DNA from: a virus
Reading direction: 5' to 3' (one strand)
IMG/VR virus record: IMGVR_UViG_3300022674_000023
Span: 1-48,246 of that record
Length of the DNA: 48,246 nucleotides
This document shows, piece after piece, positions 12,285-41,650 of this stretch (position 1 is the first letter of the stretch; every line of letters begins with the position of its first letter). The notes beneath the pieces were generated by a model, which had not been told where the DNA came from, made no database searches, and was given only the letters and a program-made list of their open reading frames with translations. The position numbers and the translations under genes were made by a program.

Positions 12285-12718
12285 ATATCAAGTGCCTCCG
12301 GATCGAAAATAAACTCCTGGTCTTTCTTGGGTGGTGCTGGTGCTTCTTCTGGCTCTTTTTTAGGTGGTGTTGTGCCGTCAATATAACCACGCATATATTG
12401 TTTAGCATCTTCTACATGATCACTAAAACCTTCTATATATTCATCGATTTTAATTTCATATGTTCTTGGTTCATCGATTTTAACTTCTTCTTCAGGATCA
12501 TATGCTTTTAGGCGTGGTGGGTCCATCACTCGATACCGAATTACAGGTTGTTCAGACTTATACTTCATTTGTTCCATCGCCAGATCACGTTTCATTTTCA
12601 GAAAATATTCTGCTCTATAATCGGATGGATAACTTGTTGTTCCTTCGGTGGAAGATGATGTTCTGCCGATAAACCGATCTCTCATCTCTTCCCAATTGGA
12701 AAATTCTGGATTGCTCAT
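12281..12718 (-). CDS. hypothetical protein
   Basis: A 145-residue protein of unknown function, charged, with a proline/glutamate-rich C-terminal tail (PPKKEPEEAPAPPKKD) that is probably disordered. The ATG overlaps the stop codon of the RNA polymerase beta gene by four bases and GGGAG lies upstream. Being translationally coupled to the polymerase gene, it might be an accessory factor, but the sequence does not show it. Confidence 0.6.
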   Translation of the reverse strand: MSNPEFSNWEEMRDRFIGRTSSSTEGTTSYPSDYRAEYFLKMKRDLAMEQMKYKSEQPVIRYRVMDPPRLKAYDPEEEVKIDEPRTYEIKIDEYIEGFSDHVEDAKQYMRGYIDGTTPPKKEPEEAPAPPKKDQEFIFDPEALDI

Positions 12719-15714
12719 TTGTGATTTACTCCCAATACAGTCAAATATGAATTTAATAACTTGACTGATTCTGGTACTGTATCGAATGTTTTTGTTTCAT
12801 CACTCAAATTTGATTCAATGAAACTTCTGATATATTTATTTTTCAAATCAATACAGTCTGATTTGGTCGTCAGGAACTCAAATAAATTGATCGGAGCATC
12901 ATGACCAATGATACAAGCTGTTTCCATTTCACCACATCGTTGACCACCTTTATTTTTTCTACCACCCAAAGGCTGGAGTGTTCTTTTTGCATAACTACCA
13001 ATACCTCTTGCAGCTAATTTTTCTTCTGCAATGTGAACCATTCGTAGAAAATAAACATAGCCAACTGATATTTCATTTTCGATGAATTGTTTTGAAACAG
13101 GATCATATAATCTTTGTTTGAAAGTTGTTCCTGTGTAATTCAATGCTTCTTTTAAATCTTCCATTTTAACTGATTCAAATGGAGGCTGAATTATTGTCAA
13201 TTGTTCAATGTATTCAGGAGTAATTTTCTTTGGCATATCGGCAACGAATTGTTTTGAATACCAATTATCTTTTGTCTTGTCAATGATTTTTATAAAACCC
13301 AACAAATAATCTTTGATTTCTTTTTGTGTATTATTTTCAAACATCTTATTGATATTTTGTTTCAAATCATAGAATGCCATTGTCAGATGTAATTCAAACA
13401 ACTGTCCAACATTCATCCTTGAAATAATACCCAGTGGGTTAATACAAATATCAAGAGTTCGTCCATCAGGTAATGTTGGCATTTTCTTTTCAGGAACAAT
13501 TCTTGAAATTATTCCTTTGTTTCCGTGTCTATTCGCAACTTTATCACCAACTTGAATCGGACGTTGATGAATGCCAATTATTCTAATATGAATCCCATTT
13601 ATCTTTTCTCTCTTTTGTTTATACTTCCCAACAAAAGATCCTAAATCCAAACCATTTTCTTTTATGATTTGGTTTGCTTGTTCTTTTGAAAATTTGTTTT
13701 GAATGAGTTTCTTCAGATCTTTTTCTTTATCACTTTGTGCATCTAATGTTTTTTCAACCCATTCTTTAAATTCAGGAATATCTGTATTCCACGTATTTGC
13801 AAATAATCTGACCTCAGGTATGATGAATTTCTTTTCAGTTTGTAGATATGTTTCTTCTCCAAATTGAGAATATAAATCATCAGATGTCAAACTTTGAATC
13901 CTTGCATATGGAGTATTCTTCCCAAGTGTTTCATATTGTTCTGGAAGTGGTTTATATTTTTCTGGATCAATTGATAACAGAACTTTATGTGGTGGTAATG
14001 TAAATGACAAATCTTTGTAATGGATTGATGTTAATGTATTTTCTTTCACAAGACGTTCTGAAATTGCAATTCCATCCTCGTAATTGTTACCGTAATAAAC
14101 CATTACACCTGTCAATAAATTTTTACCAAATGTGATTTCTCCATTTTTGCAATAATTACTCTCAGCTAAAATGTCACCAGCTTTAAATTTATCACCTGGT
14201 TTTACATACACATTCATAAAGTCCAAATGCTCAACATATATTTTTCGATATTCAATGTTAAACAATTCAACATCTCCATCAGTATATTCAACCATGATGA
14301 ATTTATCGTCCATGTGAACAATTTTCCCATCTTTCTTTGCACGTTTAACAAATTGAGTTTGGTCTGTATATAACCATTCACATCCTGATTGAACCATGGC
14401 TCTGTCAAACTTCTTCAACATAATTGATTGACGCATTTGTGATGATGCCATTTGAAGTCTTGTTTGGTCATCATGTTCACAAAACGGAACCATTGATACT
14501 GGTATTGATATTGGCTGTGAATCGCATGTATCGCTTGTAAATAACATTTTATCATCCAAAGAAACATTAGGTATCAGGTTCTGTAGAACACCGCAATTAT
14601 CACGGTCTGGCGTATCTACAGGGCATAATCTACCAAACATTGTTGGACATATATCTCTTAAATGTTTTGGAATATTCTCTCGTTTGAATCCACCTGGTCC
14701 TAATAGACTGATTCTTGATAGCTTTGTCAATTCTTCAATCGGGTTTATTGAGAAATCAAATTGTATGATATCCGACACATTACTTTCACTCAATATTTGA
14801 TTTGAGTTGATGTTGAATTTTGGCTGACGGGATGTTCTGTTTGAAAAGCACAAGTCAAATATGATTTTTGAAATCTTCGCAAATATCATATATTCAAAAC
14901 ATCTTACTCGTTTGTTTGTGAACAATGTATCATCGACATATTGATCTTGAATAATTTGAAGCAACTCTTCAATCAATGATCCCGTTTGCAAGAATTGAGA
15001 TGTCATTATATCTATTTTTGGAATAGCTTCAAGGGCATACACAATGTCTTCACCCTTTGATTTTGAATTGTATCTTGAATAATTTCGACCCAACTCTTGA
15101 ATGAAATCATCTTGTGTATAACCCTTTGATTCATCCCATGTCAAATGTAGGTCTTCAATTAAATTTTCATATAATACATCACTACCGGATTCAAATTTGA
15201 TATGTTTAAAATCAAATCTATCATCCATTGCTTCAGGTCCATAGAACGCAAACATTAATAAAGCAAGTGAAACCTTCTTGCCTAGAAAGCTAACTTTAAT
15301 AACAGGAGCTTCTTTATCTTTGAATAACATCAATGTTGCTACATTCGTTCTTAATTTTATTGTTTCTCCCCTTGTAACTACGGGAATGTCAAACAACTGA
15401 AATAACGGAATTTTTCTTCTACCGTTTATGACGATGTAATTTTTGTCAATGATCTTCGGTAGAAATATACTCAAATCAATATTCGAGTTTCCCTTTTGTA
15501 ATTTGATTGCTAAGGTTTGTTTAATTGTTCTAGATAATTCACCTGATGAAAATCGTGAATCTTTTATTCCTAATTCAGCTATCTGAAACCCTATTTCCTC
15601 TACTGGCTTAACTATTTGTGAAACAATGGGTAAGATTTTTTCATATTCTGTTTCTCTGATTGTGAAGATATTATTACCTTCGTCTTGAATTTTAAATACT
15701 GGGTTTATAATCAA
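12715..15714 (-). CDS. phage DNA-directed RNA polymerase beta subunit homologue
   Basis: A 999-residue homologue of bacterial RpoB (about 1340 in E. coli), forming one half of the catalytic cleft. Recognisable blocks in order: LGPGGFKRENI...GRLCPVDTPD (about 337-375; bacterial SALGPGGL...GRICPIETPEG), YGNNYEDGIAIS (about 540; WxGYNFEDSI), ANRHGNKGIIS (about 725; GRHGNKGV) and KGGQRCGEMET (about 925; GGQRFGEME). The order and spacing show one continuous beta chain, unlike phiKZ-type phages whose beta is split. The shorter length implies loss of lineage-specific insertions. Translation starts at TTG with GGAGGAA upstream. It lies just downstream of beta-prime, separated by one small gene. No alpha or omega subunit is seen, so assembly must differ from the cellular enzyme or use host alpha. 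Confidence 0.95.
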   Translation of the reverse strand: MIINPVFKIQDEGNNIFTIRETEYEKILPIVSQIVKPVEEIGFQIAELGIKDSRFSSGELSRTIKQTLAIKLQKGNSNIDLSIFLPKIIDKNYIVINGRRKIPLFQLFDIPVVTRGETIKLRTNVATLMLFKDKEAPVIKVSFLGKKVSLALLMFAFYGPEAMDDRFDFKHIKFESGSDVLYENLIEDLHLTWDESKGYTQDDFIQELGRNYSRYNSKSKGEDIVYALEAIPKIDIMTSQFLQTGSLIEELLQIIQDQYVDDTLFTNKRVRCFEYMIFAKISKIIFDLCFSNRTSRQPKFNINSNQILSESNVSDIIQFDFSINPIEELTKLSRISLLGPGGFKRENIPKHLRDICPTMFGRLCPVDTPDRDNCGVLQNLIPNVSLDDKMLFTSDTCDSQPISIPVSMVPFCEHDDQTRLQMASSQMRQSIMLKKFDRAMVQSGCEWLYTDQTQFVKRAKKDGKIVHMDDKFIMVEYTDGDVELFNIEYRKIYVEHLDFMNVYVKPGDKFKAGDILAESNYCKNGEITFGKNLLTGVMVYYGNNYEDGIAISERLVKENTLTSIHYKDLSFTLPPHKVLLSIDPEKYKPLPEQYETLGKNTPYARIQSLTSDDLYSQFGEETYLQTEKKFIIPEVRLFANTWNTDIPEFKEWVEKTLDAQSDKEKDLKKLIQNKFSKEQANQIIKENGLDLGSFVGKYKQKREKINGIHIRIIGIHQRPIQVGDKVANRHGNKGIISRIVPEKKMPTLPDGRTLDICINPLGIISRMNVGQLFELHLTMAFYDLKQNINKMFENNTQKEIKDYLLGFIKIIDKTKDNWYSKQFVADMPKKITPEYIEQLTIIQPPFESVKMEDLKEALNYTGTTFKQRLYDPVSKQFIENEISVGYVYFLRMVHIAEEKLAARGIGSYAKRTLQPLGGRKNKGGQRCGEMETACIIGHDAPINLFEFLTTKSDCIDLKNKYIRSFIESNLSDETKTFDTVPESVKLLNSYLTVLGVNHK

Positions 15715-15718
15715 ATTG

Positions 15719-15904
15719 TTATTCCTCCACCATTTCTTTAAGTTCTTGTAATGCTTTTTTTAGGATTTCGTCTTCTACATAATATGGATCTTCGTTCATT
15801 CTCAAAGCATTCATTATTAATTGTGTTAATCGGAGATCTGGAGCACGATACCAGATCTCTCTAATTAACGACAACATTGGTTCAATTCTTTGCGGGTCTC
15901 TCAT
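15719..15904 (-). CDS. small conserved protein, YihD/DUF1040-like
   Basis: A 61-residue helical protein (RDPQRIEPMLSLIREIW...PDLRLTQLIMNAL...YYVEDEIL). The pattern R-D-P-x-R-I ... P-D-L-R-L-x-Q-L-I ... Y-x-V-E-D is seen in small proteins related to DUF1040/YihD, which are common in bacteria and phages and of unknown function. The ATG overlaps the beta-prime stop codon and the gene ends five bases before the beta TTG, so it is sandwiched in the RNA polymerase operon. Confidence 0.65.
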   Translation of the reverse strand: MRDPQRIEPMLSLIREIWYRAPDLRLTQLIMNALRMNEDPYYVEDEILKKALQELKEMVEE

Positions 15905-18558
15905 CTGATTCGTTCACCCGTAAGAATCTTATCCATGACACCCGAATATCTACCTTCATATAAAATACCCTGAAGGATTGATCGTTTTGGATTTGAAAAT
16001 GCCATTGCTAATATCCAACTTTCTTGATTCGGAACACTTTGAATTGAATAATATTGTGGTTTGAAATTTTCTCTATTTGGAATCAATCTCCATTTGCGAT
16101 AATCAACCCACATTAATTGTGCAACAACACATTCGTAATGAATATGATGTATGTCTTTATCATATACATCGAATAATTCCGATACGATGTCTTCATATGT
16201 TTTCCCTTTAAATCTATGAAGCAATGAAGCGACAGCAGACAGATCACCAATGATATCTTTTTGTTCAATTGCGCCCTCTGTTTGACTTTGATCTCCTTTA
16301 ATTATAGCTGAGCCTGATGTGTGAAATGTCCTCAACACTAACTGGGTTGATCGTTCGCCTAGAGTTTGAGCGGCAATGATGCCAATAAATCTACTGTTTA
16401 ATTTCTTATACAAATCACCATAACATGTTTGACATATTTTTGGATTTTTGCATAAAATGGGACTTCGAATTTCAATTGTAGACCCCAACAGATCCATACA
16501 ATTGTCTTTTGTAATTTTAACTAAACCATTGGAACTTTTCATAAATCTATTGACTAACATCTTCGCTTTTCTTGGAGATGTTACTTTCACACTCAGAAAA
16601 TCTGTTGTGCCGCAATCTTCTGAATCCAAATCAATCTGCAAATTTGCACATGTGAAAATCAATTTTCTTGAAAGATATCCTGATGTTCCTGTATTCAATG
16701 CAACGTCAAGGAGTCCTTTTCTACAACCATATGTTGAAAAGAAAAATTCTTCTTGTGTTAACCCTTCTATCAGACTATGTTTAATTGGTTGCGGTAGAAT
16801 TTCTCCATCAAAATTTGATATGAACCCTCTTGTTAATATTAACTGTTTGACCTGATCCCAACTACCTCTGGCCCCTGAGTCAATAAGATATGAATACATG
16901 AATCTTTTTCTTAGTTCTTCAACAACTTTATCATCATTCAATGCCATTAATTGTTTACGTGGTTCATTGCTTGAATATAAAATATCTCGCATTGCACCAG
17001 ATCCTTCAAAATAACAATCTTCTAATGACATTGTACAACCAACTAATGTTGCATATTTGAATCCGATTTTCTTTATTTTGTCTAATATTACTGCGGTTAC
17101 TGGTTCAGGGTAATTGTCTTTTATATCATTTAATACATCCATTAAAATATTTTTATTAACAACGCCTTTGATACGTCTATAGCCTTCAGGTAAACATGAG
17201 TTGAAAATTTCTTCACCTTCAGGTTTCGATGTCAAGAAATATATTCCTAATACAATATCTTGACTTGGAGTTGTTGTTAGATCTTCATTTGCCGGACTGT
17301 TTAAATTTTTCGTAACAAACATTTTATCGATAATCTCAGCTTTTGCTTCAGGAGATACCGGAATATAAACAGCCATTTGATCTCCATCAAAATCTGCATT
17401 AAATGGAGGGCAAACTAATGGGTGTATTTTAATAACTTTGTCAAGAGAAACTTTAATATAAAAACCCAACATTCCTAATTTATGCAATGATGGTTGTCTG
17501 TTTAAAATACAAACTTCACCTTCAATTAATTCTTCAACAATTTTAAACAAGACTGGATCATCTGTTTCAATACATTGATCAACAAAATTGATTGCTTTAT
17601 TTAGGAGTTTAAAATGACCCAACTCTATAATTCTTTTTGCTATTGGAAGTTTAAACATTTCAAGAATCATTAAGTATGGTAATACACATTGATTTAAATT
17701 CAATGTTGGTTCTGGTGCAATAACAGCACGACCAGAAAAGTCAATTCGTTTTCCTAAAATGTTGCCACGAATCAGACCTTCTTTTTTCGCCATCTTTTCA
17801 AGTATTCTTGTGTATAATTCATTTACTACATTTTGCAACTGAGTGAAATATGTGTAATAAACATTTTTATCAGCATGGATGTTCATTACTGTATCTCTCA
17901 TAATTTCTTTTTTCGTTAAAATCTGGACATAATATCGATTGATTTTGTCCATTAATTGTTTTCCGCCGCCGCCCTTTGAAACAGGTCTTAAATCAGGAGG
18001 TAAGACTATGATTTTATTGATTAATAACGAATCCATGTTATTAAGAATAAGTTGCCATTCTTCTACATTTTCTGCTGCTAATGTTTTGGCCACTTTCTCA
18101 ACTAACATATAAATTGCATCAGTCTTTTCCCATACATCAGTTCCATCTGGAATAGATTCAGGATTGGTTGTAACGACAGGTTCATCCTGATCAAAATATA
18201 AAGAGCTCTTTTCACTTTTCATTAATTCGTCAATTGCGCCCTTTAGAACTTTTCCACCCAGATCGGTAACTAAATCATACATCAAAGGATTTACAACGGG
18301 CATTGGGAGAACGATTTTTGCAAATCTCTTTCTGCGTTCATCACTGTTTATAATATCAACCTTACATAAATCACACTGTCCGCCTGATTTTGAAATGCCA
18401 TAATAAGTTCCGCATTGACATGTGTAATTTTTGACAGGTCCAAAAATCTGCTCTGAAAACAAACCATCGGGATGAAACTTCTTTTTTCCTATTGTTTTCA
18501 ATGATGTAACTTCAGGCAACTCTTCGCAGAATGATTGGTAGTCGAGAATTTTTGGCAT
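15901..18558 (-). CDS. phage DNA-directed RNA polymerase beta-prime subunit homologue
   Basis: An 885-residue homologue of RpoC (about 1400 in E. coli) carrying the catalytic metal site. It has an N-terminal zinc-binding site (C47, C49, C62, C65 in CQCGTYYGISKSGGQC and DLC), the catalytic NADFDGDQMAVY (about 388-399) with all three aspartates, a second Cys cluster CKNPKICQTCYG (about 705), and the trigger-loop helix LGERSTQLVLRTFHTSG (about 735-750; bacterial GEPGTQLTMRTFHTGG). The C-terminus ends with the beta-prime tail pattern (FSNPKRSILQGILYEG). It is therefore a complete chain in a single gene. GGAGG precedes the ATG. It should transcribe a subset of phage genes; the promoter-recognition factor is not evident in this window. 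Confidence 0.95.
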   Translation of the reverse strand: MPKILDYQSFCEELPEVTSLKTIGKKKFHPDGLFSEQIFGPVKNYTCQCGTYYGISKSGGQCDLCKVDIINSDERRKRFAKIVLPMPVVNPLMYDLVTDLGGKVLKGAIDELMKSEKSSLYFDQDEPVVTTNPESIPDGTDVWEKTDAIYMLVEKVAKTLAAENVEEWQLILNNMDSLLINKIIVLPPDLRPVSKGGGGKQLMDKINRYYVQILTKKEIMRDTVMNIHADKNVYYTYFTQLQNVVNELYTRILEKMAKKEGLIRGNILGKRIDFSGRAVIAPEPTLNLNQCVLPYLMILEMFKLPIAKRIIELGHFKLLNKAINFVDQCIETDDPVLFKIVEELIEGEVCILNRQPSLHKLGMLGFYIKVSLDKVIKIHPLVCPPFNADFDGDQMAVYIPVSPEAKAEIIDKMFVTKNLNSPANEDLTTTPSQDIVLGIYFLTSKPEGEEIFNSCLPEGYRRIKGVVNKNILMDVLNDIKDNYPEPVTAVILDKIKKIGFKYATLVGCTMSLEDCYFEGSGAMRDILYSSNEPRKQLMALNDDKVVEELRKRFMYSYLIDSGARGSWDQVKQLILTRGFISNFDGEILPQPIKHSLIEGLTQEEFFFSTYGCRKGLLDVALNTGTSGYLSRKLIFTCANLQIDLDSEDCGTTDFLSVKVTSPRKAKMLVNRFMKSSNGLVKITKDNCMDLLGSTIEIRSPILCKNPKICQTCYGDLYKKLNSRFIGIIAAQTLGERSTQLVLRTFHTSGSAIIKGDQSQTEGAIEQKDIIGDLSAVASLLHRFKGKTYEDIVSELFDVYDKDIHHIHYECVVAQLMWVDYRKWRLIPNRENFKPQYYSIQSVPNQESWILAMAFSNPKRSILQGILYEGRYSGVMDKILTGERIR

Positions 18559-18564
18559 ATTATA

Positions 18565-18783
18565 TTATTCCTCCGGGTCTTTTAAATTTGTTTGAACGTG
18601 TGTTGCTAGTGCTTTCAGATGAAGAATCACAACCCTTGAAACAATTGATTCTATTTCAGGTATGATTGCTTTTATTATTTCTTGAGCATCTTCCTCTTTA
18701 AGCTTTGATTCTCTTTTGTCCAATATTCTTATGACAACATCTTCGACATAAGTTTCAATTGGATTTGTTTGTTTCTTTGGCAT
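18565..18783 (-). CDS. hypothetical small helical protein
   Basis: A 72-residue protein predicted to be almost entirely helical (VEDVVIRILDKRESKL, EIIKAIIPEIESIV). A strong AAGGAGGG ribosome site precedes the ATG. It lies six bases upstream of beta-prime and directly downstream of the E2-like gene. It might be an omega-like or other RNA polymerase accessory chain, but there is no omega signature (no clear 'RxxQL'), so this stays a guess. Confidence 0.6.
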   Translation of the reverse strand: MPKKQTNPIETYVEDVVIRILDKRESKLKEEDAQEIIKAIIPEIESIVSRVVILHLKALATHVQTNLKDPEE

Positions 18784-18792
18784 CTTCCCTCC

Positions 18793-19242
18793 TTATTTAT
18801 TTAACTGAACATACATAGACTTTAATTTTCTATAACGAACATTTTTACCAATTGGATTAAAAAAGCAATTATCTAAATAATAAGTTTGAATGTTTGTTAT
18901 GACTATATCCAAATATTCTTTTGTTAGATATATTCCTTTTTTGAAATCAGGCAAACAAAAAACATCTGTGTCAGGATCACAATTTGGATGATACCCAAAG
19001 ACTCTTACATAGAGGACTTTGTCGTTTTCTGTTGTTATTGTAAACCCATCTAAATGATACATTTCATTTACATATGTGATTTCATAAGCATTTTTATCCA
19101 TTATGATTCTATTTGGAATTATTTTCGTTATATAAATATGAGTCTTTTTATATAATTCCTTTCCGTTGGAGTCTCCAACAATAAAATGATGATCGTCAGG
19201 CCGCTCCGGTTTCTTCGAGTAATTCAACAAATGTTTCTCCAT
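18793..19242 (-). CDS. E2 (UBC-fold) ubiquitin-conjugating-enzyme-like protein
   Basis: A 149-residue protein of the size of a minimal E2 domain. FGYHPNCDPDTDVFCLPDF (82-100) aligns with the eukaryotic E2 core 'yHPNi..dG.iCLdil': HPN at 85-87 and a cysteine at 96, eleven residues after the His of HPN (ten in typical E2s). Then LTKEYLDIVITNIQTYYLDN (106-125) matches the 'WsPa.ti..iLlsIqsLL..Pn' helix, ending NP (129-130). This order of HPN, catalytic Cys and crossover helix is the signature of E2 enzymes that carry ubiquitin-like proteins as thioesters. The ATG at 19242 overlaps the preceding E1-like gene by 47 bases; a TTG a few codons later is an alternative start. The match is by eye only, but the context (E1, Ubl, JAMM) fits. 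Confidence 0.7.
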   Translation of the reverse strand: MEKHLLNYSKKPERPDDHHFIVGDSNGKELYKKTHIYITKIIPNRIIMDKNAYEITYVNEMYHLDGFTITTENDKVLYVRVFGYHPNCDPDTDVFCLPDFKKGIYLTKEYLDIVITNIQTYYLDNCFFNPIGKNVRYRKLKSMYVQLNK

Positions 19243-20101
19243 TCACGCTTCTTAATGTAACAATAAAATTTACTATATTGCATTGTTCTTTCACAATCTT
19301 TGATAATGCGTATATCAAATCATTTGAATTTCTTAATGAATTTTGAGGGATAACATCATATTTTGTTTTTGCGACTTGTGGTAATCTTTGCATCTGTCTA
19401 AATGGATCAAGGTTTCTTTCTCCAATGAATACTTCAACATCTTTTGTTTGATTCAAACATAAAATTGGATCAATGTTTTCTTCAAGACAATGAAGTCTAT
19501 CTCCAACATCTGAATCATAAATAATATCAATACGATTTTTATTACTGGTTTTCATAGCTTGATCTATAATTGATGGCAATAGATTTAAATCAATTCTTTG
19601 AACTAATTGATTTTGCTTCATTTCTTTTATTTGATCGCTACATATAATTTGTGATGCAAAGAAACCAGCTTTGTTCAATTCACTTTTTGATAATTGATTT
19701 CGATATGATCCTTTATAATGGTATTGACTCCTTATGTTTTTTCTGCAATCGATTATGAGTATTCTACCTGTTATATAAAGTCTAACATCAATTTCATTAC
19801 CCCTGTTACAAACAACATCTCTACAATCTACTACAAGATCACATTCTGGAAGTTTGGTTTTTCTTTCTTTATATTTTTCATGAATTGGAATGACACCAAT
19901 ATCATTCTCAATTAGTTCTGTCAATGCATCAACTTTAGTTTCCCCAATTTGTGATGCATTATATACTGAATTATGAATATTTCTACTTTCTAAAACATCA
20001 TAATCAACAATAACCAATTCTTCTATAGATTCCATTGTGGATATATTTTTACATACGGCCCCGCCAAGGGTGCCGAGACCTATCACAGCAATTCGCTTCA
20101 T
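19196..20101 (-). CDS. ThiF/E1-like activating enzyme with C-terminal extension
   Basis: A 301-residue protein. The N-terminal Rossmann fold has GLGTLGG (8-14), the ribose acid pair in VDYDVLESRN (D33, D35, N41), the adenylation-site lysine in GETKVDAL (K56) and the family's conserved aspartate in VVDCRD (D92). These are E1/ThiF/MoeB features for ATP-dependent adenylation of the C-terminal glycine of a ubiquitin-like protein. The usual arginine after N is replaced (RNIHNSVY). Cys154 is one candidate for a thioester cysteine. Residues 240-301 form an extra alpha/beta domain ending ETGAA, unknown to me. It overlaps the E2-like gene, so the pair is probably translated together. GGAG lies before the ATG. 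Confidence 0.75.
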   Translation of the reverse strand: MKRIAVIGLGTLGGAVCKNISTMESIEELVIVDYDVLESRNIHNSVYNASQIGETKVDALTELIENDIGVIPIHEKYKERKTKLPECDLVVDCRDVVCNRGNEIDVRLYITGRILIIDCRKNIRSQYHYKGSYRNQLSKSELNKAGFFASQIICSDQIKEMKQNQLVQRIDLNLLPSIIDQAMKTSNKNRIDIIYDSDVGDRLHCLEENIDPILCLNQTKDVEVFIGERNLDPFRQMQRLPQVAKTKYDVIPQNSLRNSNDLIYALSKIVKEQCNIVNFIVTLRSVNGETFVELLEETGAA

Positions 20102-20131
20102 TCACGGTGTTCTCCTTTCGATTAATGGGGA

Positions 20132-20155
20132 GGGGAGCTCCCGAAGGAGCCCCCC
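20132..20155 (-). terminator. strong UUCG-tetraloop hairpin between Ubl and E1-like genes
   Basis: On the minus strand GGGGGGCUCC-UUCG-GGAGCUCCCC forms a perfect 10-bp stem (one G-U) closed by a C(UUCG)G tetraloop, the most stable tetraloop type. No long U-tract follows (CCCCAUUAAUCG), so it may be a weak terminator, an attenuator or a 3' end stabiliser for the Ubl mRNA, lowering expression of the E1-like and E2-like genes downstream. Confidence 0.6.
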
Positions 20156-20169
20156 AATTGTGAAGGAGA

Positions 20170-20643
20170 TTATCCTTTCTTCCCGGCTGGTTTCAGGAAC
20201 TCAAGGGTGTCACCCGCTTTGAGTTTGTAGGTTCCGTCAACTTCTTTGCCGTTGACCAGGCCAGTGGAGAGTTTGTCCACGTTCAGAACTTCCCGAAGGA
20301 AATCCCCAACTTCGGCGACTGTGCGGCCAGCGACCGGAAAACGACCTGAAGATGCACCACATGATACCTGAAGGGTTGTGCTCAGGCGATCACCCTTTTT
20401 CAGGGTGGGTTTGGTGACTGAAGATTGGAAGGTTGCTTCCACTCCATCCAGGGGTTTTGCGGCGGGACCATCGGCTGCGATGGTTGCGGTGGTTGAACCG
20501 GCAACACCATGTTTGGCCATAATGGCGTCGATGATGACCGATTTGGGTTTCTTGGTGAATCCAACGATACCCAATTTCACTACCAGTTGACGAAGATCAC
20601 GAACGGTTTTTGCCTCTAGAGTTTCTCTTTTGTACTGTGCCAT
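20170..20643 (-). CDS. SAP/Rho_N-like plus ubiquitin-like (beta-grasp) protein with free C-terminal glycine
   Basis: A 157-residue protein in two parts. Residues 9-46 (AKTVRDLRQLVVKLGIVGFT...KSVIIDAIMAKHG) look like a SAP or Rho N-terminal helix-extended loop-helix, a nucleic-acid-binding fold. After a linker of Ala/Thr/Pro comes residues 84-157: two strands, the helix VAEVGDFLREVLNV, GLVNGKEVDGTYKLKAGDTLEFL, the ThiS/MoaD/ubiquitin-like pattern. The chain ends PAGKKG, so the glycine needed for adenylation is exposed without processing. Codons here are richer in G and C than in most neighbours, suggesting high expression. It lies between two E1-like genes and is the natural substrate of this cluster; as a carrier alone (sulphur carrier) it would be far from MoaD partners. 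Confidence 0.7.
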   Translation of the reverse strand: MAQYKRETLEAKTVRDLRQLVVKLGIVGFTKKPKSVIIDAIMAKHGVAGSTTATIAADGPAAKPLDGVEATFQSSVTKPTLKKGDRLSTTLQVSCGASSGRFPVAGRTVAEVGDFLREVLNVDKLSTGLVNGKEVDGTYKLKAGDTLEFLKPAGKKG

Positions 20644-20674
20644 GTTTTTAATTTCCTTTTCACTTTTTTTTGTT

Positions 20675-20688
20675 TGACTTGCAAGTCA
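20675..20688. repeat. 14-bp perfect palindrome upstream of the Ubl gene
   Basis: TGACTTGCAAGTCA is a perfect palindrome located between the stop of the E1/ThiF gene and the ribosome site (AAGGAAA) of the Ubl gene. On the minus strand it is followed by A residues, so it is not a terminator. It could be an operator or a short mRNA hairpin. Confidence 0.4.
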
Positions 20689-20689
20689 G

Positions 20690-21367
20690 TTAGTCTTTCA
20701 CGATTCTTGTTTGGGCACGAGCTGCCATCTGTGTAAGATCAAAATACACTTCAGACTTATCGTACTGCTTCTTGACAATTGCGTTATAAAACGCCCAACA
20801 CATAATGGTTGCAACACCGAGATTTGCGAAGTATAATTGTGGTTCTGCTGCTGCTAATTCTTCGCATGACATCTCTTCTGGTAACTTGTCGTCGGGTTTG
20901 GCAATCTCCGGATGATACGCACAAAGGTCGGGAGTAATATCTTTCCCATTTTGCCTGATGTAAATCTGTACGTTTCCATCAACCATATCATTGCCACCAG
21001 AAATCAAAGTAACATCTTGTAATTGCTTGCAATAATTTGAAAGAATCATTCTGGTTTTATGGTTATCTACGCAGCTAAATACAATATTGCCTTCTTTAAC
21101 AACTTCCGATAGATTTGTCTCGTTCACGAAGGCTGGGAATGAACTTACATTTAACATGGAAAACTGCATTTTAAGATCGGCAGCTTTCACTTCAGCTTTA
21201 TTACCCATTTGAGTGAAGTCTTGTCTTTCGAAATTTTTCGCTTCGTAAGAGTCTCCATCAACGAGTAACATGCTTGCGCTTGTTCCTGCTGAATAGGATA
21301 GATATCGGGCCATTCTTTCACATAACAATGACCCGACACCACCTAGACCAATAACAACTATTTCCAT
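20690..21367 (-). CDS. ThiF/MoeB-family E1-like adenylating enzyme
   Basis: A 225-residue minimal E1. GLGGVGS (7-13) starts the Rossmann fold; VDGDSYEAKNFERQDF (36-51) carries the ribose-binding acids D37/D39 and the N45..R48 pair of the 'D.D.v..sNl.RQ' motif; K61 is the adenylation lysine; SCVDNHKTR (98-106) gives the conserved aspartate D101. C168 in EEMSCEEL precedes AEPQLYFANL, matching the 'C....PQ...N' position of PRTRC-type ThiF proteins and so a candidate thioester cysteine. It activates a ubiquitin-like protein by AMP-ylating its C-terminal glycine. It sits between the Ubl and JAMM genes, the order seen in bacterial ubiquitin-like and PRTRC cassettes. Its start is nine bases after AAGGA. 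Confidence 0.85.
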   Translation of the reverse strand: MEIVVIGLGGVGSLLCERMARYLSYSAGTSASMLLVDGDSYEAKNFERQDFTQMGNKAEVKAADLKMQFSMLNVSSFPAFVNETNLSEVVKEGNIVFSCVDNHKTRMILSNYCKQLQDVTLISGGNDMVDGNVQIYIRQNGKDITPDLCAYHPEIAKPDDKLPEEMSCEELAAAEPQLYFANLGVATIMCWAFYNAIVKKQYDKSEVYFDLTQMAARAQTRIVKD

Positions 21368-21372
21368 AGTGT

Positions 21373-23196
21373 TTACAGTCCTTTTGCCGCTTTCTTCGCT
21401 TTTTCAAATAGAGATGCAAAGACGCCTGACTTTTTGTTAATTGGAGTTGAATCACTGCCTGGAACTGGAATACGTTCCTGATCTTGTTCAGCAATTCGGT
21501 TAATAGCCTCTTGATCCGAATCTAAATACATTCCGGAGTCCTTCTTTAGTTGTTCTTCCATTGGGTCTTCAATTGATTCTGCACTGTTTAATCTGGCAGC
21601 AGCAAGACTTTCAGCCATTGCATTTCGGATCTCGAATGGTTCAAACTCATACGGACAAAAGTTACACCTGTTGTCAAGTTCAAGATTTGCCACCATATTT
21701 TGATGACCACAATCCGGACAGGCGATGTAACCTGAATCTGTTACTTCGGACTTGTATTCAACAACGGCATGTGGATCCATTACTTGATTACCGCAGGTTG
21801 GACACTTTCCGTCATTCAAGAAGTCTTTTGTGAATGAACTTGCACAGGCACTACATTTAATCATGCCTGGTTCGAGTTCCTCGTTGTCAGACCCTTCAGC
21901 TTCCATCATGATCTCAGCGGCTGTAACTTCTACCAGGTAATCTTCACTCTGACATGTTGGGCAACACGCCATTACATCATCGGCGTCTTCATCGAATGAT
22001 AAATAATTGTTGCATCCCATACAATGATAATGAGTAAGTCCTGTATCATCCACTGGATCGTCGGCGACCACTTTATAATTTTCGCCTTCTAATTGTTCAA
22101 TTGCCCACGCAAGAATGGATTTTTTCGTTTGATCGTCCATGTGTTCAATCATCATATTAACTTTATGATTCTTGAATGTGCAATCATCACAAGGTGTCGT
22201 CTTCGGTTTTACCGTTGGTGGTATTGGTTTAGCTGGTATTAATGCACCAGATGATCCAACTACAACCGAAGGTGGCGGGGTCATGGTCTTAGGTTTGCCA
22301 GTTTTTGTATTTTTGACACCGTGACCTTGCCACCCCTTCCAGGCATTTTTGTCGTAATGAGGGTTATGTGCGTTATACCCATACCAACCCTGATCCCATC
22401 CTGAACCATAAGAATATATGTTTGTGTATGTTTTCTTCGATACACGTTCCATCCATTCGGCTGGGAATTTGGGGTCTTTCGCAAGACGAACACGATATCT
22501 CTGATCAAACTTCCGGCGGGTATAATATTTACCGGTTTTAACCTGGACCATTTTGTGCTTCGTTGAATCCCAACGCCATGTTGTAGCCGCTGGTATTTTT
22601 TCTTCTTCGTTAATATCAACTGTCAGTTCCATCTGATTAATATATTCACATGGATTTACAATCACCCGATGACCATTGGCTACAATTGATGCTGATACGC
22701 TAATATCATCATCTCTCATATTACCGAATGTTATATGAAGACCATCGAATGATTTTTCATCGTTGTCGTCAACACCTGAATGAAATGCTGACATTGAAGC
22801 ATGACTATGAATTGTACCGATCATATCCCATCCATCAATTGTGATGCCTTTATTATAATCCGCGGCACCACCACTGACTTCTTGAACAGGAACTACAATC
22901 TTGTGTTGTTTTGTTTCAAGATTGTAGAACAATAACACGATGGCCTCACCGTAATGTACTTTATATACTTCTTTGAAAAAGTTGATCACCTGTTGTGCTT
23001 TCTTTGCAGGGATCTTTCTGATATGCATCCTGGCCATCGTTTGGACGCTCTCAAGAATTGAAATGTTTTTTACTGGGGCGATACTATCCATTACGCCCAG
23101 CTTCTTCTTTAGAAAAATTCCCTCTTTACCGACAATATAACATATATCATCATCAGGAATTTCAGCTGTGCCATCATTCACTATCACTGGGAACAT
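21373..23196 (-). CDS. JAMM/JAB metallopeptidase with multiple zinc ribbons
   Basis: A 607-residue protein. The N-terminal JAB domain has E84 (GEAIVLLF) and HSHASMSAFHSGVD (130-143), a perfect HxHx7SxxD zinc-peptidase motif, the chemistry used by deubiquitinases such as Rpn11. Residues about 200-290 are aromatic and Gly/Tyr/Trp-rich (YGSGWDQGWYGYN). From about 330 onward come several paired CxxC knuckles: CDDC, CMGCNN with CPTCQ, CSAC with CPTCG, and CPDCG with CNFCPY, suggesting four zinc ribbons. A catalytic domain joined to zinc ribbons fits a peptidase that recognises a tagged complex and removes or matures a Ubl. It begins inside the end of the 880-residue gene (23-base overlap; RBS AAGGAG). 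Only the metal-site motif is decisive for function. Confidence 0.85.
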   Translation of the reverse strand: MFPVIVNDGTAEIPDDDICYIVGKEGIFLKKKLGVMDSIAPVKNISILESVQTMARMHIRKIPAKKAQQVINFFKEVYKVHYGEAIVLLFYNLETKQHKIVVPVQEVSGGAADYNKGITIDGWDMIGTIHSHASMSAFHSGVDDNDEKSFDGLHITFGNMRDDDISVSASIVANGHRVIVNPCEYINQMELTVDINEEEKIPAATTWRWDSTKHKMVQVKTGKYYTRRKFDQRYRVRLAKDPKFPAEWMERVSKKTYTNIYSYGSGWDQGWYGYNAHNPHYDKNAWKGWQGHGVKNTKTGKPKTMTPPPSVVVGSSGALIPAKPIPPTVKPKTTPCDDCTFKNHKVNMMIEHMDDQTKKSILAWAIEQLEGENYKVVADDPVDDTGLTHYHCMGCNNYLSFDEDADDVMACCPTCQSEDYLVEVTAAEIMMEAEGSDNEELEPGMIKCSACASSFTKDFLNDGKCPTCGNQVMDPHAVVEYKSEVTDSGYIACPDCGHQNMVANLELDNRCNFCPYEFEPFEIRNAMAESLAAARLNSAESIEDPMEEQLKKDSGMYLDSDQEAINRIAEQDQERIPVPGSDSTPINKKSGVFASLFEKAKKAAKGL

Positions 23197-25816
23197 TTAA
23201 AATACTCCTTGTATCGTTGGCAACTAGGTAGGGTGAAAAGAATTTTTCAGTTGTAATGTACATTCCATGAAAATTAGGAAATGCATTAACGAATCCAAGT
23301 TTATTCTCTTGGGATACTGAAAGACGAGGGTTAGGAATCGAATCAAATATTACATCTCTGGTAAACATTCTATCAAAGACATAGCTTTCTTCATACATAT
23401 GATAATAACCAAGATGAGCAGCACGAACTGTCCGTTGATCTCTCGGACGATATACAAGGTATCCACAATTGTTAGCGAATCTATTTTTCCCTTTAAGTAT
23501 ATCACCAGCTTGATATCTCATCTTAGATGGACTAATGGGTGCATGTTTTTTCGTTTTCCATGCTGCATCATCCATTTTAATTATATCAAAATTTTCAAGA
23601 ACATCACTGTACCACAGGGTAGCTGCATTTGAACACAATACTAATGGTTCTGGTCCGCCGGTATCATAAAGAAAACCGATAATGATGTTGGTGTCCTTTT
23701 TCGGAAACATGGAAATCCCTGTTTTATTTGCAACAATTTTCATACCAGCCGAAAGTTCTTCCCACCGATTTGTGATCTTACGGACTGAACCGATTTTAAC
23801 AGAATGGTGTCTAGTATCTATATAATCGATAGCTGACAACTTATCATTTTTATCAGTCATTGTAAATTTGATATCACCAGTTTCAGCATTCTGTACAAAC
23901 CCTTGAATCTGTTTGACAGTCAACATATCAACTGGGTCATCCCAATTTGCAACAACGACTTTATCACCGATTTCAAATTCAATCGGACCTGTGAAACTAT
24001 CAATACTGAACTTGTTTCCATTATCAAATATAAACTGATCTCTACACTGAGAAAAACTTGCACTTCTCAATTTAACAGCATACCTTGTTGTAATTCCTAT
24101 ATTTTCCAACACATGTGCTTTACTAAGTCTACTACCAGACCCAGTATTTTCTGATGCGTACATCAGTTGTCTTCCGACTGCAAACACTGGAGGTAATTCC
24201 CGCATCGATTGTTTTTCATAAACTCTGCGAATACGTGCTGAAGAAGTTGAGGTCATTGGTAATTCGTAATTATAACCTCTATCATAGCCACTATTTACTA
24301 TGAATTTCATCAACAGGTCATTTCCCATGCCAGTTGTTACTTCTTTAAAATCACATATTGATATCGGAATAACTGGAGTTGAATTATATCCATCGCTACG
24401 TAGAACAATATATTCCTTATCAGTAGTTAATACAAGATCAAAATACTCAGGATTTGAAACATCGATAATTTTTGTATCTTTTGAAATGTTATCCAAAATA
24501 TAATATTCATTACCGACCCGAGCTTCAATTTCTCCCTTAACTGACATTCTAATATAGAATATTTTCCGATATACATCATGACCATAATTATCTTTCATGA
24601 TCACGATATCGCCTGCCTTAAGCTCTTCTCCATTTGGTAGAATTGCAGTTGCCAGGTGACGTTCTTCTTTACATTTGGCCGATATATATTTACGAACTTC
24701 TTTAGTTAAACGCCATTTTAATAATCTTCCATCATGCCTTTGCAAACTAATATATGTTGGTTCAGGCATTCTACGAAAACCAAGATACGAATCAACATGG
24801 AGAACTTGGCCATGGTTATTTTTAAACATGTCACCTTGATCAACATAGATTTCATCCATAAACATCGAATTTGAAACATCGAATAACAATGGTTGAACTG
24901 AACCGATGCCGGGGACTTTCTCCATACCTTTATCTGAAGATTCGGTAAATAGTTGTCGTAATGTCGTATAACCGAACTGGCCGTTTTCACGGTCTCCCCG
25001 ATCATTTATCCAATTTCTTACTCGATCTGTCTCGGTACCAACTGTAATTTTTGGTTCCTGAATCCAATCAGCCGTATATACGAACATTGGATCAATATTT
25101 GAATAATATTGCCAGGTAAAATAATCACACAAACCTGGAGTGTGTTGATATGCTTGATAGTTGTAAATATAGTCCGGGTTGAATATTGTGGACCAATAGC
25201 ATGAAACTGCATGGTTTACATCTGCAAAAATACTTCTTTTTGGTCCCTTATGTATCATATCTCCAAAGCATATATTTTGACTTTCGCTAATGTTCAGGAA
25301 TGGAGCTTTCAGAAGTTGATCACTGAACCCAGATATCGGTTTTGTTCTGAAAAATATTTTACCTCCCAGACAATCATATCTTTTTGTAAATGCAAGAAAG
25401 AATACAACATACGGTAATGCCAATGTAAATTGAAATGGTCTTTCTGGATTTTCATCTTTCCATTTTTCATATCCATATTCTTTAATGTGTCCAGCGCTTT
25501 TCAATGCCTCATATTCATGAGACATATCTTTATCTACTGTAATTGTTCTGAACGCCGGCTGTTCTTCTATAACAACAAGGAACCCTTGATCTTGTTTTTC
25601 ATAATACCGACAATTCGGTGGAAATAAATGATCTACTTGATAATCCGTTTTCTTTAATGATGGATGTTCTTTAAGTTTGCTAATTAGTTCTGTTGTCCGA
25701 ATGATTCTTTTGTTTTTAATAGGTTTTGAATCATCTTTTTCGGTGTCTGGATATTCAGAAATCATAGACGTAGCGTAAAATTTGTTTAACCGTATTTCGT
25801 CCAACTCTGTTACCAT
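23174..25816 (-). CDS. large protein with prokaryotic E2 family D-like region
   Basis: I choose ATG at 25816 (880 residues), just after the previous gene's stop and with GGAG upstream; a GTG lies four codons earlier. Residues about 64-216 (numbered from this ATG) recall the PRTRC protein B / Prok-E2_D domain: LFPPNCRYYE...EQPAFRT, then ALPYVVFFLAF, KIFFRTKPISG, APFLNISESQNICFGD (Cys183) and NHAVSCYWSTIFNPDY, in the family order 'P.vlf...l..T.l...P..Nv...g.vC.G...W...f..s.f'. The remaining ~650 residues are beta-rich repeats (GEELKAGDIVIMKD, VGNEYYILD) of unknown fold, perhaps a scaffold. It overlaps the JAMM gene, so co-expression is likely. The E2 reading is weak and needs a profile search. 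Confidence 0.45.
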   Translation of the reverse strand: MVTELDEIRLNKFYATSMISEYPDTEKDDSKPIKNKRIIRTTELISKLKEHPSLKKTDYQVDHLFPPNCRYYEKQDQGFLVVIEEQPAFRTITVDKDMSHEYEALKSAGHIKEYGYEKWKDENPERPFQFTLALPYVVFFLAFTKRYDCLGGKIFFRTKPISGFSDQLLKAPFLNISESQNICFGDMIHKGPKRSIFADVNHAVSCYWSTIFNPDYIYNYQAYQHTPGLCDYFTWQYYSNIDPMFVYTADWIQEPKITVGTETDRVRNWINDRGDRENGQFGYTTLRQLFTESSDKGMEKVPGIGSVQPLLFDVSNSMFMDEIYVDQGDMFKNNHGQVLHVDSYLGFRRMPEPTYISLQRHDGRLLKWRLTKEVRKYISAKCKEERHLATAILPNGEELKAGDIVIMKDNYGHDVYRKIFYIRMSVKGEIEARVGNEYYILDNISKDTKIIDVSNPEYFDLVLTTDKEYIVLRSDGYNSTPVIPISICDFKEVTTGMGNDLLMKFIVNSGYDRGYNYELPMTSTSSARIRRVYEKQSMRELPPVFAVGRQLMYASENTGSGSRLSKAHVLENIGITTRYAVKLRSASFSQCRDQFIFDNGNKFSIDSFTGPIEFEIGDKVVVANWDDPVDMLTVKQIQGFVQNAETGDIKFTMTDKNDKLSAIDYIDTRHHSVKIGSVRKITNRWEELSAGMKIVANKTGISMFPKKDTNIIIGFLYDTGGPEPLVLCSNAATLWYSDVLENFDIIKMDDAAWKTKKHAPISPSKMRYQAGDILKGKNRFANNCGYLVYRPRDQRTVRAAHLGYYHMYEESYVFDRMFTRDVIFDSIPNPRLSVSQENKLGFVNAFPNFHGMYITTEKFFSPYLVANDTRSILNVPSDSE

Positions 25817-25817
25817 A

Positions 25818-26192
25818 TCATTCTCCACGATAAAATTTTACAAGTTTTGCAAATTGATGAATTATCTTCTTTGCGCTATTACCTTCGATTTTATGGACTT
25901 TGTTTTTTCTTGGTGGCTTGTCTTTCTTATCTAGCCTATATGTCCAGAAAACGCCAATATAATCTTCTTCACTTTCACGTTCAAGAGAAAGAAATCCAAT
26001 CTCCTTTTTTAACAAACCACTAACTTCAATAATTGCGAATTTATTTGGCCCCTTTGGTGCATGTTGAATATTTTTCATTCGGGGCATTTCTTCCTTCATA
26101 ATAATATCACAAAATTCTCTGATCTGTTGAGTCATATCAGTTGTTTTAATTTCACTGATAATTTTATCTAATGTCGTTGGCTCTTTCGCCAT
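25818..26192 (-). CDS. hypothetical protein
   Basis: A 124-residue protein of unknown function, with a helical N-terminus (LDKIISEIKTTDMTQQIREF), a strand-rich middle (FAIIEVSGLLKKEIGFLSLE) and a basic C-terminus (KKDKPPRKNKVHKIEG). GGGAGG precedes the ATG, which overlaps the upstream DUF2693-like gene by one base. The E2 region of the next gene follows after two bases. Confidence 0.6.
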   Translation of the reverse strand: MAKEPTTLDKIISEIKTTDMTQQIREFCDIIMKEEMPRMKNIQHAPKGPNKFAIIEVSGLLKKEIGFLSLERESEEDYIGVFWTYRLDKKDKPPRKNKVHKIEGNSAKKIIHQFAKLVKFYRGE

Positions 26193-26533
26193 TACTTATT
26201 ACCTCCCATTCGTTTAATGGGTTTGATCTTATACATTCTTTCTCCAGCTTGTAAATATTCAACATTGTTAAATGGAACAGATCTCCATCCCTTCTTTTCA
26301 AGGTCATATACATGAAGAATACCACTATTCTGCATCAGTTTTAATATGGCTGGTATATTAACTTTCTTCGGATGATCAATTTGTGGTATCTTTTGAAAGT
26401 TCAATGTACACTTCATAAATCTTGTTGTGCCATCCTTCTTTCTAAATTTAATATTTACTTCATCCTCTGAACTTACTTTATGCCAGAATTGAACTGCATT
26501 TTGAATAATTTCTGGATCAAATTCGTTTGCCAT
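26192..26533 (-). CDS. DUF2693/SH3-like small protein
   Basis: A 113-residue protein with FRKKDGTTRFMKCTLNF (about 30-46) and LHVYDLEKKGWRSVPFNNV (about 73-91). The pattern 'KKDGt.R...cTL ... v.D...g.wR.f...V' is that of the DUF2693 family of phage proteins with an SH3-like barrel, whose function is unknown. GGAGG precedes the start. Confidence 0.55.
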   Translation of the reverse strand: MANEFDPEIIQNAVQFWHKVSSEDEVNIKFRKKDGTTRFMKCTLNFQKIPQIDHPKKVNIPAILKLMQNSGILHVYDLEKKGWRSVPFNNVEYLQAGERMYKIKPIKRMGGNK

Positions 26534-26537
26534 TTAA

Positions 26538-27581
26538 TTATTTCCTCCGATCCAAATGTACTAGATCATCTGGACTTAAATCGTGATCGTCGATAATTTT
26601 GCTCATCAAATGACAAGTGTGATTACATAATTTACAATGCTTACGCTTGTCAGCACCTAGTATTGTTTGAGCAACACGATTCACTGAATAATCTTCCGTC
26701 TGTAAAAGATAACTCACGTTTGGAATCATCTTCGGAGTTAATACACCACGAATCCTTAAACACAAACGGATACTACCATCTGCATCAATTGATATATTGT
26801 GCAGGTTTCTTTCTATTTGACAATCCATATCGGATGGGAGAATACCCCATATTGCAGGCATCAATGTATTTTTCATATGAACATCTACATCATTATCTGA
26901 AATCAATTGAAACTGCTCGGCCAATACAGGAGATTGACCAACTAACAATTCTGGGTCTGAAACATTTGCAAAATCATAATATGGATTCTTTGCAATATCG
27001 ATAAATGTTACATCGCTGTTAATACCAGCTTCTGTTAATAATTGCACCAACTTATATAAATATTGTTGGTTATGTTTCATAACTGTTATTTCTGCAACTA
27101 CATCATCACATACTTCTTTCATCTTCTTCAGATTTTCAAAACCTGCGAGACTTTTTATAACGCTATCTTCATCCACATCTTCTGTTGCAAAGAAAACTGG
27201 ATCAACTGAAGCTGTGAATCCTTTAATGTTTCCCCGAACATCTTTTATCAATTTTTCAATCAACGGTTTAATCTGTTCGGTGTTATTTGAAATTATTGTA
27301 TAATGAATATCTTCATCGTTACAATAATTGATAATGTCAGCCAGGTCTTTACGGAGCATTGGTTCACCGCCATAAAAGATATGAAATGCATCTGGATTGT
27401 GTAATTTCAATAGAGATAAATATTTGATAACTTCATCGGTTGTCATTTCATTCTCGATATAATGTTTCATATCGGGATATTCTTCCGGCTTGTTATCATA
27501 ATTTTTAACTATTGCACAATAACTACATTTCAAATTACATCGCCTGGTCAACAACCAATTAACTATTCGTATTTTGCTCAT
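26538..27581 (-). CDS. radical SAM protein with SPASM-like C-terminal cysteines
   Basis: A 347-residue enzyme. RRCNLKCSYC (13-22) supplies the CxxxCxxC that binds the radical SAM 4Fe-4S cluster; FYGGEPML (about 69-76) is the SAM-binding GGE motif. The C-terminal third has cysteines in DCQIERNL, SIRLCLRIRG and KHCKLCNHTCHL, the layout of SPASM/twitch domains holding auxiliary clusters, as in peptide-modifying enzymes (PqqE, anSME). It lacks the QueE-type short insertion and is too long for QueE, so it is not an obvious 7-carboxy-7-deazaguanine synthase. It overlaps the FVTNSSS gene upstream by 23 bases, which makes that protein the nearest candidate substrate (inference). RBS AAGGAGA. Confidence 0.85.
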   Translation of the reverse strand: MSKIRIVNWLLTRRCNLKCSYCAIVKNYDNKPEEYPDMKHYIENEMTTDEVIKYLSLLKLHNPDAFHIFYGGEPMLRKDLADIINYCNDEDIHYTIISNNTEQIKPLIEKLIKDVRGNIKGFTASVDPVFFATEDVDEDSVIKSLAGFENLKKMKEVCDDVVAEITVMKHNQQYLYKLVQLLTEAGINSDVTFIDIAKNPYYDFANVSDPELLVGQSPVLAEQFQLISDNDVDVHMKNTLMPAIWGILPSDMDCQIERNLHNISIDADGSIRLCLRIRGVLTPKMIPNVSYLLQTEDYSVNRVAQTILGADKRKHCKLCNHTCHLMSKIIDDHDLSPDDLVHLDRRK

Positions 27582-40170: not shown

Positions 40171-40367
40171 TCATCCTCTCTGTCTGTTACTGGTTTATTT
40201 TTAAACGGGGGGTATATAAAAATTGCAATTGCGACCCACATACTAGAGCCAACAATACATACTGGTCCCCCATTTGGTTGAAACGATCCTCCGAAAAGCA
40301 TGGTTGCTATATACACTGAAAACACTAGCAATAAATAACGAAACCATCCAATTTCTAATATTTTCAT
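40167..40367 (-). CDS. small membrane protein
   Basis: With ATG at 40367 (66 residues) overlapping the previous stop (ATGA). Two transmembrane segments are visible, YLLLVFSVYIATMLFGG and IVGSSMWVAIAIFIYP, with a short acidic C-terminus. Size and topology resemble small phage membrane proteins such as holins or antiholins, but no lysis genes are seen next to it, so this is open. Confidence 0.6.
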   Translation of the reverse strand: MKILEIGWFRYLLLVFSVYIATMLFGGSFQPNGGPVCIVGSSMWVAIAIFIYPPFKNKPVTDREDE

Positions 40368-41641: not shown

Positions 41642-41650
41642 TGATCACCT

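Follow-up and report, generated by a model that had tools for sequence, protein, structure and literature searches.

Ubiquitin-like (Ubl) conjugation occurs in eukaryotes and in bacteria, where it is known chiefly as an anti-phage defence or from plasmids. The type 6d operons of Iyer, Burroughs and Aravind encode a Ubl, a JAB, an E1 and an E2; in their E2-like protein a conserved Cys is followed by a His that is conserved absolutely, and their JAB-N has a strictly conserved Arg and Trp (PMC1779556). Here we describe a cassette that is probably a functional, reversible Ubl-conjugation pathway and that belongs to the core genome in a lineage of large phages. Apparently, no phage has been described before in which a complete gene set for attaching and removing a Ubl is part of the core. 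Open-licence literature on PRTRC and phages, on jumbo phages and ubiquitin-like proteins, and on phage KLEB27-3 reports no such phage system, and a survey from 2021 that covered 224 jumbo phages does not mention JAB, ThiF or Ubl.

The window analysed is a tailed-phage contig of 48,246 nucleotides, in which six genes on the minus strand (18793–25828) make up the cassette. The order is as follows: an 884-residue Prok-E2_D protein (E2D, 23174–25828), a 607-residue JAMM/JAB isopeptidase (JAB, 21373–23196), a 225-residue ThiF-type activating enzyme (E1a, 20690–21367), a 157-residue Rho_N plus β-grasp modifier (20170–20643), a 301-residue ThiF-like protein (E1b, 19196–20101), and a 149-residue E2-like protein (p149, 18793–19242). 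After p149 come p72 (18565–18783), a small protein recognised by synteny and kept in most relatives, and then the RNA polymerase (RNAP) subunits β′ (15901–18558, with Rpb1 domains) and β (12715–15714, with Rpb2 domains), all on the minus strand. Directly upstream, on the same strand, lie p124, a WYL_2 protein and a radical SAM protein (25818–27581), placed by Pfam (WYL_2, 1.9e-9; Radical_SAM, 3.7e-13) and synteny; they are conserved beside the cassette. The contig is assigned to a tailed phage by a terminase large subunit matching phrog_2 (6e-38) and a weak tape-measure match. The E1-E2-Ubl-JAB set is thus phage-encoded and lies upstream of the phage's own RNAP, as the earlier note had claimed. 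An Rfam scan of 15.5–31.5 kb found no RNA family, and a promoter scan gave signals no better than in shuffled sequences.

With RNAP as the sole bait, all six genes were found in the same order upstream of RNAP in 52 of 56 loci, and relatives collected with E1a or E1b as bait have this order wherever the contig has room. The catalytic residues of the cassette proteins are invariant in alignments of 60–78 distinct proteins, and cassette dN/dS against the nearest relative is 0.06–0.19, indicating purifying selection. By synteny, invariant residues and dN/dS, conservation is far above chance. That is, the cassette is a lineage core, near-universal at a fixed place and not sporadic. Typical accessory counter-defence genes do not behave in this way, and this bears on the idea of counter-defence, in which the phage genes would capture, remove or compete with host immunity of the Ubl type, such as Bil or type II CBASS. 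Host Ubl systems are active against phages (PMC10097602; Hor 2024 as cited in PMC12660748), and JAB could reverse conjugates, but removal needs no complete activating and conjugating set, and the nearest kin of the cassette are self-contained E1-E2-Ubl-JAB operons. Countering of host Ubl defences, which the earlier note had put forward, is therefore possible only, and we consider such a role quite improbable for a core set.

The cassette consists of two separable modules, E2D-JAB-E1-Ubl and E1b-p149, because each occurs alone: locus L165 has the first without E1b-p149, and locus L158 has the second without the other four genes. Searching the full L158 record with E1a recovered only its E1b.

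E2D has a Prok-E2_D core at about residues 60–260, with the catalytic Cys at C187, followed by a conserved extension of about 600 residues. The N-terminal 300 residues scored 25.5 bits (1.2e-5) against Prok-E2_D (PF14460; cut-off 25), the whole protein scored 23.4 bits, just under the gathering score, and the domain was found in 22 of 29 relatives (best 5e-12); this bears out the Prok-E2_D-like region noted before in a protein of about 880 residues. C187 is present in 61/61 aligned proteins. No His downstream of it is invariant in the alignment, where N217 and D219 are found instead. The extension has no significant family or PDB match (a NusG match, E 0.15, was disregarded), and INPHARED, searched directly with the E2D protein, gave no match. 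The gene may start at GTG 25828; an in-frame ATG lies at 25816. JAB has an N-terminal JAB domain, matching PRTRC_A (1.9e-9) and Prok-JAB (1e-3), and a tail of Cys-rich, zinc-ribbon-like repeats. Its JAMM motif is H130-x-H132-x7-S140-xx-D143, so the earlier description of an HxHx7SxxD peptidase with zinc ribbons stands. E84, H130, H132, S140 and D143 are conserved in 75/75 proteins, and no Arg or Trp is found among the 95%-conserved positions N-terminal of the JAMM core.

E1a (ThiF, 3.9e-20; PRTRC_ThiF, 4e-11) has all the canonical E1 marks, i.e., ATP-binding motifs, Arg finger and Cys. GxGGxG, D37, R48, D101 and C168 are kept in 77–78 of 78 proteins, and C168 itself in 78/78. The modifier has an N-terminal Rho_N-like domain (about residues 9–45), found in 19 of 22 relatives (best 1.2e-6), and a C-terminal ThiS/TGS-like β-grasp domain (about residues 80–157), with matches to ThiS in 25 and to TGS in 21 of 31 relatives; it is the β-grasp protein with a GKKG end that had been recognised in the letters. 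The terminal Gly, G157, is kept in 64/64. Forty-one of the 64 distinct modifiers stop exactly at KG, 16 carry one extra Cys, and other tails after KG are R, F, YK, LL and VILTK. Tandem modifiers of two units are encoded by L171/L225 and by a Cytobacillus plasmid. In KLEB27-3 (OM634661), a Bacillus phage that has been cultured, the modifier gene lies a few genes upstream of the E2D-JAB-E1 trio and specifies four repeats of 57 residues that all end in AGVKG, followed by a tail of 7 residues; the second and third repeats have the same protein sequence but differ at 32 of 171 bases. The tails after Gly, the tandem modifiers and the four-repeat, polyubiquitin-like precursor imply cleavage after Lys-Gly. 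Trypsin would cut a GKKG tail down to one Gly (+57.02), a remnant with the same mass as carbamidomethyl, and for this reason the GlyGly remnant assay is unsuited.

Polyubiquitin-like precursors also argue against a sulfur carrier, i.e., a Ubl thiocarboxylated like ThiS/MoaD that would pass sulfur to a cofactor or nucleoside with the help of the radical SAM neighbour. The ThiS/TGS matches of the modifier, the MoeB/ThiF matches of the E1s, and the conservation of a radical SAM gene close to a ThiS/MoaD-like modifier fit that role. Nevertheless, we regard it as very unlikely, given two proteins with an invariant E2-type Cys, an invariant JAMM peptidase, and cellular and plasmid relatives that have E2D and JAB without a conserved adjoining radical SAM gene.

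E1b also matches ThiF (6.9e-11), making two ThiF/E1-type proteins, as claimed. Its alignment has no conserved Arg at the finger position, and its only invariant Cys lies in a DCR motif. Without an Arg finger or a candidate transfer Cys beyond DCR, E1b does not resemble a second E1 of the usual kind. The earlier proposal of two linked pathways is reasonable, given that the modules are separable. An origin of E1b by recent duplication of E1a is not supported by the tree, which gives each a well-supported side, with long branches and an unsure placement. Foldseek with the whole of E1b returned only ThiF/MoeB/UBA5, for the Rossmann part. The AF2 model predicts a β-β-α-β-β C-terminal domain, for which no family or PDB identity was found. 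The end of this domain, TG(A/G)A, is strictly conserved in 63 distinct proteins, with synonymous variation of codons. Shine-Dalgarno overlap was rejected as the cause (GGAG in 35/62, start overlap in 29/62, synonymous codon variation). Given this end, E1b may itself be a modifier.

The p149 gene shares 47 bases with the end of E1b. The protein is the E2-sized HPN...C protein of the earlier note, with H85 and C96 kept in 68/68 and N87 in 64/68. The pair might not be a conjugation module at all: E1b could be an inactive ThiF fold and p149 an unrelated β-rich protein. The missing Arg finger is consistent with this, as is the structure search, in which the best PDB match of the p149 model (β-meander, Cys loop, helix; pLDDT 83) was the TSG101 UEV domain at a non-significant E=0.83; comparison with viral structures gave nothing useful. 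In contrast, H and C are invariant in a family of 19% mean identity, HPN-x8-C aligns at the same spacing with Pex4 and UBE2W-like E2s (alignments not significant), UQ_con is among the commonest, though weak, family matches, the top fold match is a UEV domain, and the E1b tail is constrained at the protein level. We therefore hold a non-conjugation role to be rather unlikely. Of the folds expected by the earlier note, Prok-E2_D and β-grasp (ThiS/TGS) were matched, whereas the UBC fold of p149 is supported by motif and spacing, with a non-significant structure search.

From the observed gene set, order, conservation and precursor forms, we infer each enzymatic step and the targets, as follows. 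The modifier would be made mature with a Lys-Gly end or, in relatives, as a short-tailed or tandem precursor, which JAB would trim after Lys-Gly. E1a would adenylate the terminal Gly and then take the modifier onto C168, from which it would move to C187 of E2D, the large C-terminal region of which would pick targets. These would then bear a covalent Rho_N domain, of nucleic-acid-binding type, until JAB takes off the tag. E1b-p149 would be a second, separable E1/E2-like pair. Our best guess for the targets is proteins of phage transcription or replication, or their host counterparts; the position next to RNAP may mirror expression timing only. A fuller scheme, in which a core gene-expression programme runs on a two-branch Ubl system, with the Rho_N tag on transcription or replication proteins and with E1b as a self-modifier whose TG(A/G)A end (β-grasp-like domain) is activated and passed to p149, is unlikely as a whole. 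The same enzymology might instead tag virion proteins or host takeover targets (host RNAP, nucleoid), which is conceivable though not probable. Large phages alter host proteins by other means (PMC7824862), but no structural gene adjoins the cassette within the window, its neighbours being RNAP, SbcCD and radical SAM genes; tagging of structural proteins, as suggested before, is thus possible only.

In this phage lineage, a putatively complete Ubl pathway belongs to the conserved core and sits with the RNAP genes, and relatives with polyubiquitin-like precursors include a sequenced isolate, KLEB27-3. If the proposal is true, bacterial viruses use their own ubiquitin-like signalling. The lineage would then be a tractable setting for the type 6d/PRTRC systems, which go back to predictions made in 2006, and would bear on how Ub systems pass between cells and viruses.

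How does the cassette compare with known systems? Bil, a defence with activity against phages, comprises host-encoded BilA–D, whereas the present set is phage-encoded. Phage λ TAPI/TAPK also pair a phage Ubl with a JAB, but they have no E1/E2 and are tail assembly genes. Type II CBASS Cap2/Cap3 share the E1+E2+JAB logic, and the TG(A/G)A end of E1b has a precedent there in modifiers that can terminate with one Gly or Ala; however, the CBASS E1 and E2 are fused, the modifier is cGAS, and the role is host defence (PMC10097602).

Our best reading of the profiles is that the cassette is related to the type 6d/PRTRC operons and lies outside PRTRC by curated cut-offs. Like PRTRC (TIGR03735–03738), it matches PRTRC_ThiF, PRTRC_A and, weakly, PRTRC_B, but its modifier and surroundings differ, and all its scores fall well short of the TIGR03735/36/37 cut-offs (37.4 vs 101.8, 42.7 vs 144.8 and 12.7 vs 131.5 bits). 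As in type 6d, there are four separate genes, a small Ubl with a conserved C-terminal Gly, a JAB, an E1 without rhodanese, and an E2 with Cys and without an upstream His. Unlike type 6d, E2D lacks the conserved His after Cys and the phage JAB lacks the JAB-N Arg/Trp, the Ubl is fused to Rho_N, the E2 has the ~600-residue extension, E1b-p149 is added, and the set is phage core. vB_BauM_KLEB27-3 (gp194–gp199) and the Cytobacillus plasmid pN497-ZHONG share the E2D-JAB-ThiF trio and have, upstream of it, a gene for a modifier that ends in KG; their polyubiquitin-like modifiers have four or two repeats and no Rho_N, E1b-p149 is absent, and their E1 belongs to a different clade. The closest E1 relatives are in E2D-JAB-E1-Ubl operons of Patescibacteria and Lentisphaerota (L095–L098, L100–L105). 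These have mostly 68–86-residue modifiers, without Rho_N, RNAP link or E1b-p149; the cellular sister operons sit among housekeeping genes on Patescibacteria-type contigs, and nearly all share the KG modifier end with the phage cassette.

The record, a 48,246-base fragment of a tailed-phage genome, carries all its identified genes on the minus strand, among them the terminase large subunit (4410–6056), a weak match to a tape measure (262–3504), RNA polymerase (RNAP) β and β′, gyrase A and B, and SbcC and SbcD. There is one tRNA gene, tRNA-Gln. Upstream of RNAP β′, the order of transcription is E2D (a Prok-E2_D protein, 884 aa), JAB (a JAMM peptidase, 607 aa), E1a (a ThiF-type E1, 225 aa), Ubl (the putative modifier, 157 aa), E1b (a second ThiF-like protein, 301 aa), p149 (149 aa), and the small protein p72. 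Because the cassette genes overlap or almost abut, and a terminator scan found only weak minus-strand sites, located within genes, the cassette looks like a single transcription unit. A radical SAM protein (26538–27581) is a conserved neighbour. At 40364–42880, a DUF2201 vWA metallopeptidase-like gene adjoins an AAA ATPase gene, as in MoxR-vWA pairs.

Viral loci numbered 24 with the E1a protein as bait, 59 with an E1b profile, and 56 with a Ubl profile, in overlapping sets. With RNAP β′ as an independent bait, all six genes were found in 52 of 56 loci having at least 8 kb upstream, near-copies being counted separately and the contigs being partly those of the earlier baits. Relatives' contigs reach 312 kb, and a deep branch (321 kb) has a ThiF protein only. 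Three records, each possibly a fragment, are incomplete: L165 has only E2D-JAB-E1-Ubl, L158 only E1b-p149, and L161 neither. The phage-type cassette with RNAP also lies on contigs L094 and L099, which had been assigned to Thermoplasmatales and Woesearchaeota MAGs; these are probably misbinned viral contigs, or else hint at hosts.

E1a matches ThiF (3.9e-20) and PRTRC_ThiF, JAB matches PRTRC_A (1.9e-9), and E2D matches Prok-E2_D, as do 22 of 29 relatives (best 5e-12). Alignments of 60–78 distinct proteins per family show the key residues to be invariant: E1a C168 and R48 (78/78 each), JAMM residues E84, H130, H132, S140, and D143 (75/75), and E2D C187 (61/61). Against the nearest relative, cassette dN/dS is 0.06–0.19.

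At its N-terminus the Ubl has a Rho_N-like domain, matched in 19 of 22 relatives with a best E of 1.2e-6, and at its C-terminus a β-grasp (ThiS in 25 and TGS in 21 of 31 relatives); the window's own Ubl falls under the curated cut-off for each. Rho_N-like proteins that resemble the Ubl N-terminal part and lack the β-grasp lie directly upstream of E2D in three loci (L079 352–714, L081 236–676, L090 near 240). K156-G157 is invariant in 64 of 64 distinct Ubls and terminal in 41; in the others it is followed by C (16), R, F, YK, LL, VILTK, or similar. One phage (L171/L225) encodes a 319-aa protein of two complete Rho_N-Ubl units, and a Cytobacillus plasmid modifier is two units plus Phe. In the cultured Bacillus phage KLEB27-3, gp199 (L001 6718–7425, OM634661.1 172930–173637), annotated as hypothetical, is a polyubiquitin-like precursor of four 57-aa units, each ending AGVKG, with an MPRIVVK tail. 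It lies upstream of gp196 (E2D), gp195 (JAB), and gp194 (E1). Its repeats 2 and 3 have the same protein sequence and differ at 32 of 171 bases, a likeness to polyubiquitin genes. The simplest reading is that JAB would cleave the precursor after KG.

Sister E2D-JAB-E1-Ubl operons occur on MAG contigs of Patescibacteria and Lentisphaerota, amid housekeeping genes in three (L097, L104, L105). The E1 tree places phage E1a beside these E1s, with moderate support for exact placement, plasmid and KLEB27-3 E1s in another clade, and E1b in a third. A Parcubacteria contig (L098 2–5868) has E2D-JAB-E1 sets duplicated in tandem.

E1b has ThiF-like features (G8xGxxG, D33, D35, K56, DCR) and, in the alignment of distinct proteins, no conserved Arg at the finger position. 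Its last 80 residues are predicted to fold as β-β-α-β-β. It ends in TG(A/G)A or near variants; of 63 distinct proteins, 62 finish in Ala. The codons here differ synonymously among relatives, and therefore constraint acts on the protein. The UFD of eukaryotic E1s recruits E2s, and the E1b C-terminal domain could recruit p149 similarly. Alternatively, since CBASS cGAS is conjugated via a C-terminal Gly or Ala (PMC10097602), E1b could itself be a modifier. Many relatives have an extra gene of an 'ARGxSICSxxD' motif family between Ubl and E1b (L005 11189–11755, L009 11231–11812, L017 2694–3242, others), absent there in the window. In p149, H85 and C96 of the HPN-x8-C motif are invariant (68/68 distinct proteins). 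Two E2s, Pex4 (5nkz) and a UBE2W-like enzyme (1yrv), align exactly at this motif in non-significant profile matches, and two p149 relatives match UQ_con weakly. The AlphaFold model (pLDDT 83) is a β-meander followed by a Cys loop and helix; its best PDB match, the TSG101 UEV domain, is not significant (E 0.83).

Direct observation covers the gene set, its conservation, the precursor forms, and the constant position beside RNAP; judged from sequence, the cassette would activate, conjugate, and remove Ubl. As targets we would guess proteins of phage transcription or replication. It is less likely that the tag goes on host or virion proteins, and roles in counter-defence or sulfur transfer are improbable.

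In the open-licence literature searched, no account of a comparable phage system was found. The closest known system is the type 6d operon, Ubl-JAB-E1-E2 (PMC1779556). Two of its marks are lacking: phage E2D has no conserved counterpart of the His that type 6d E2s keep downstream of their Cys, and phage JAB lacks the JAB-N Arg/Trp. Since, in addition, the cassette proteins do not reach the PRTRC curated cut-offs, we take the cassette to be a distinct branch that would work like a 6d/PRTRC-type system.
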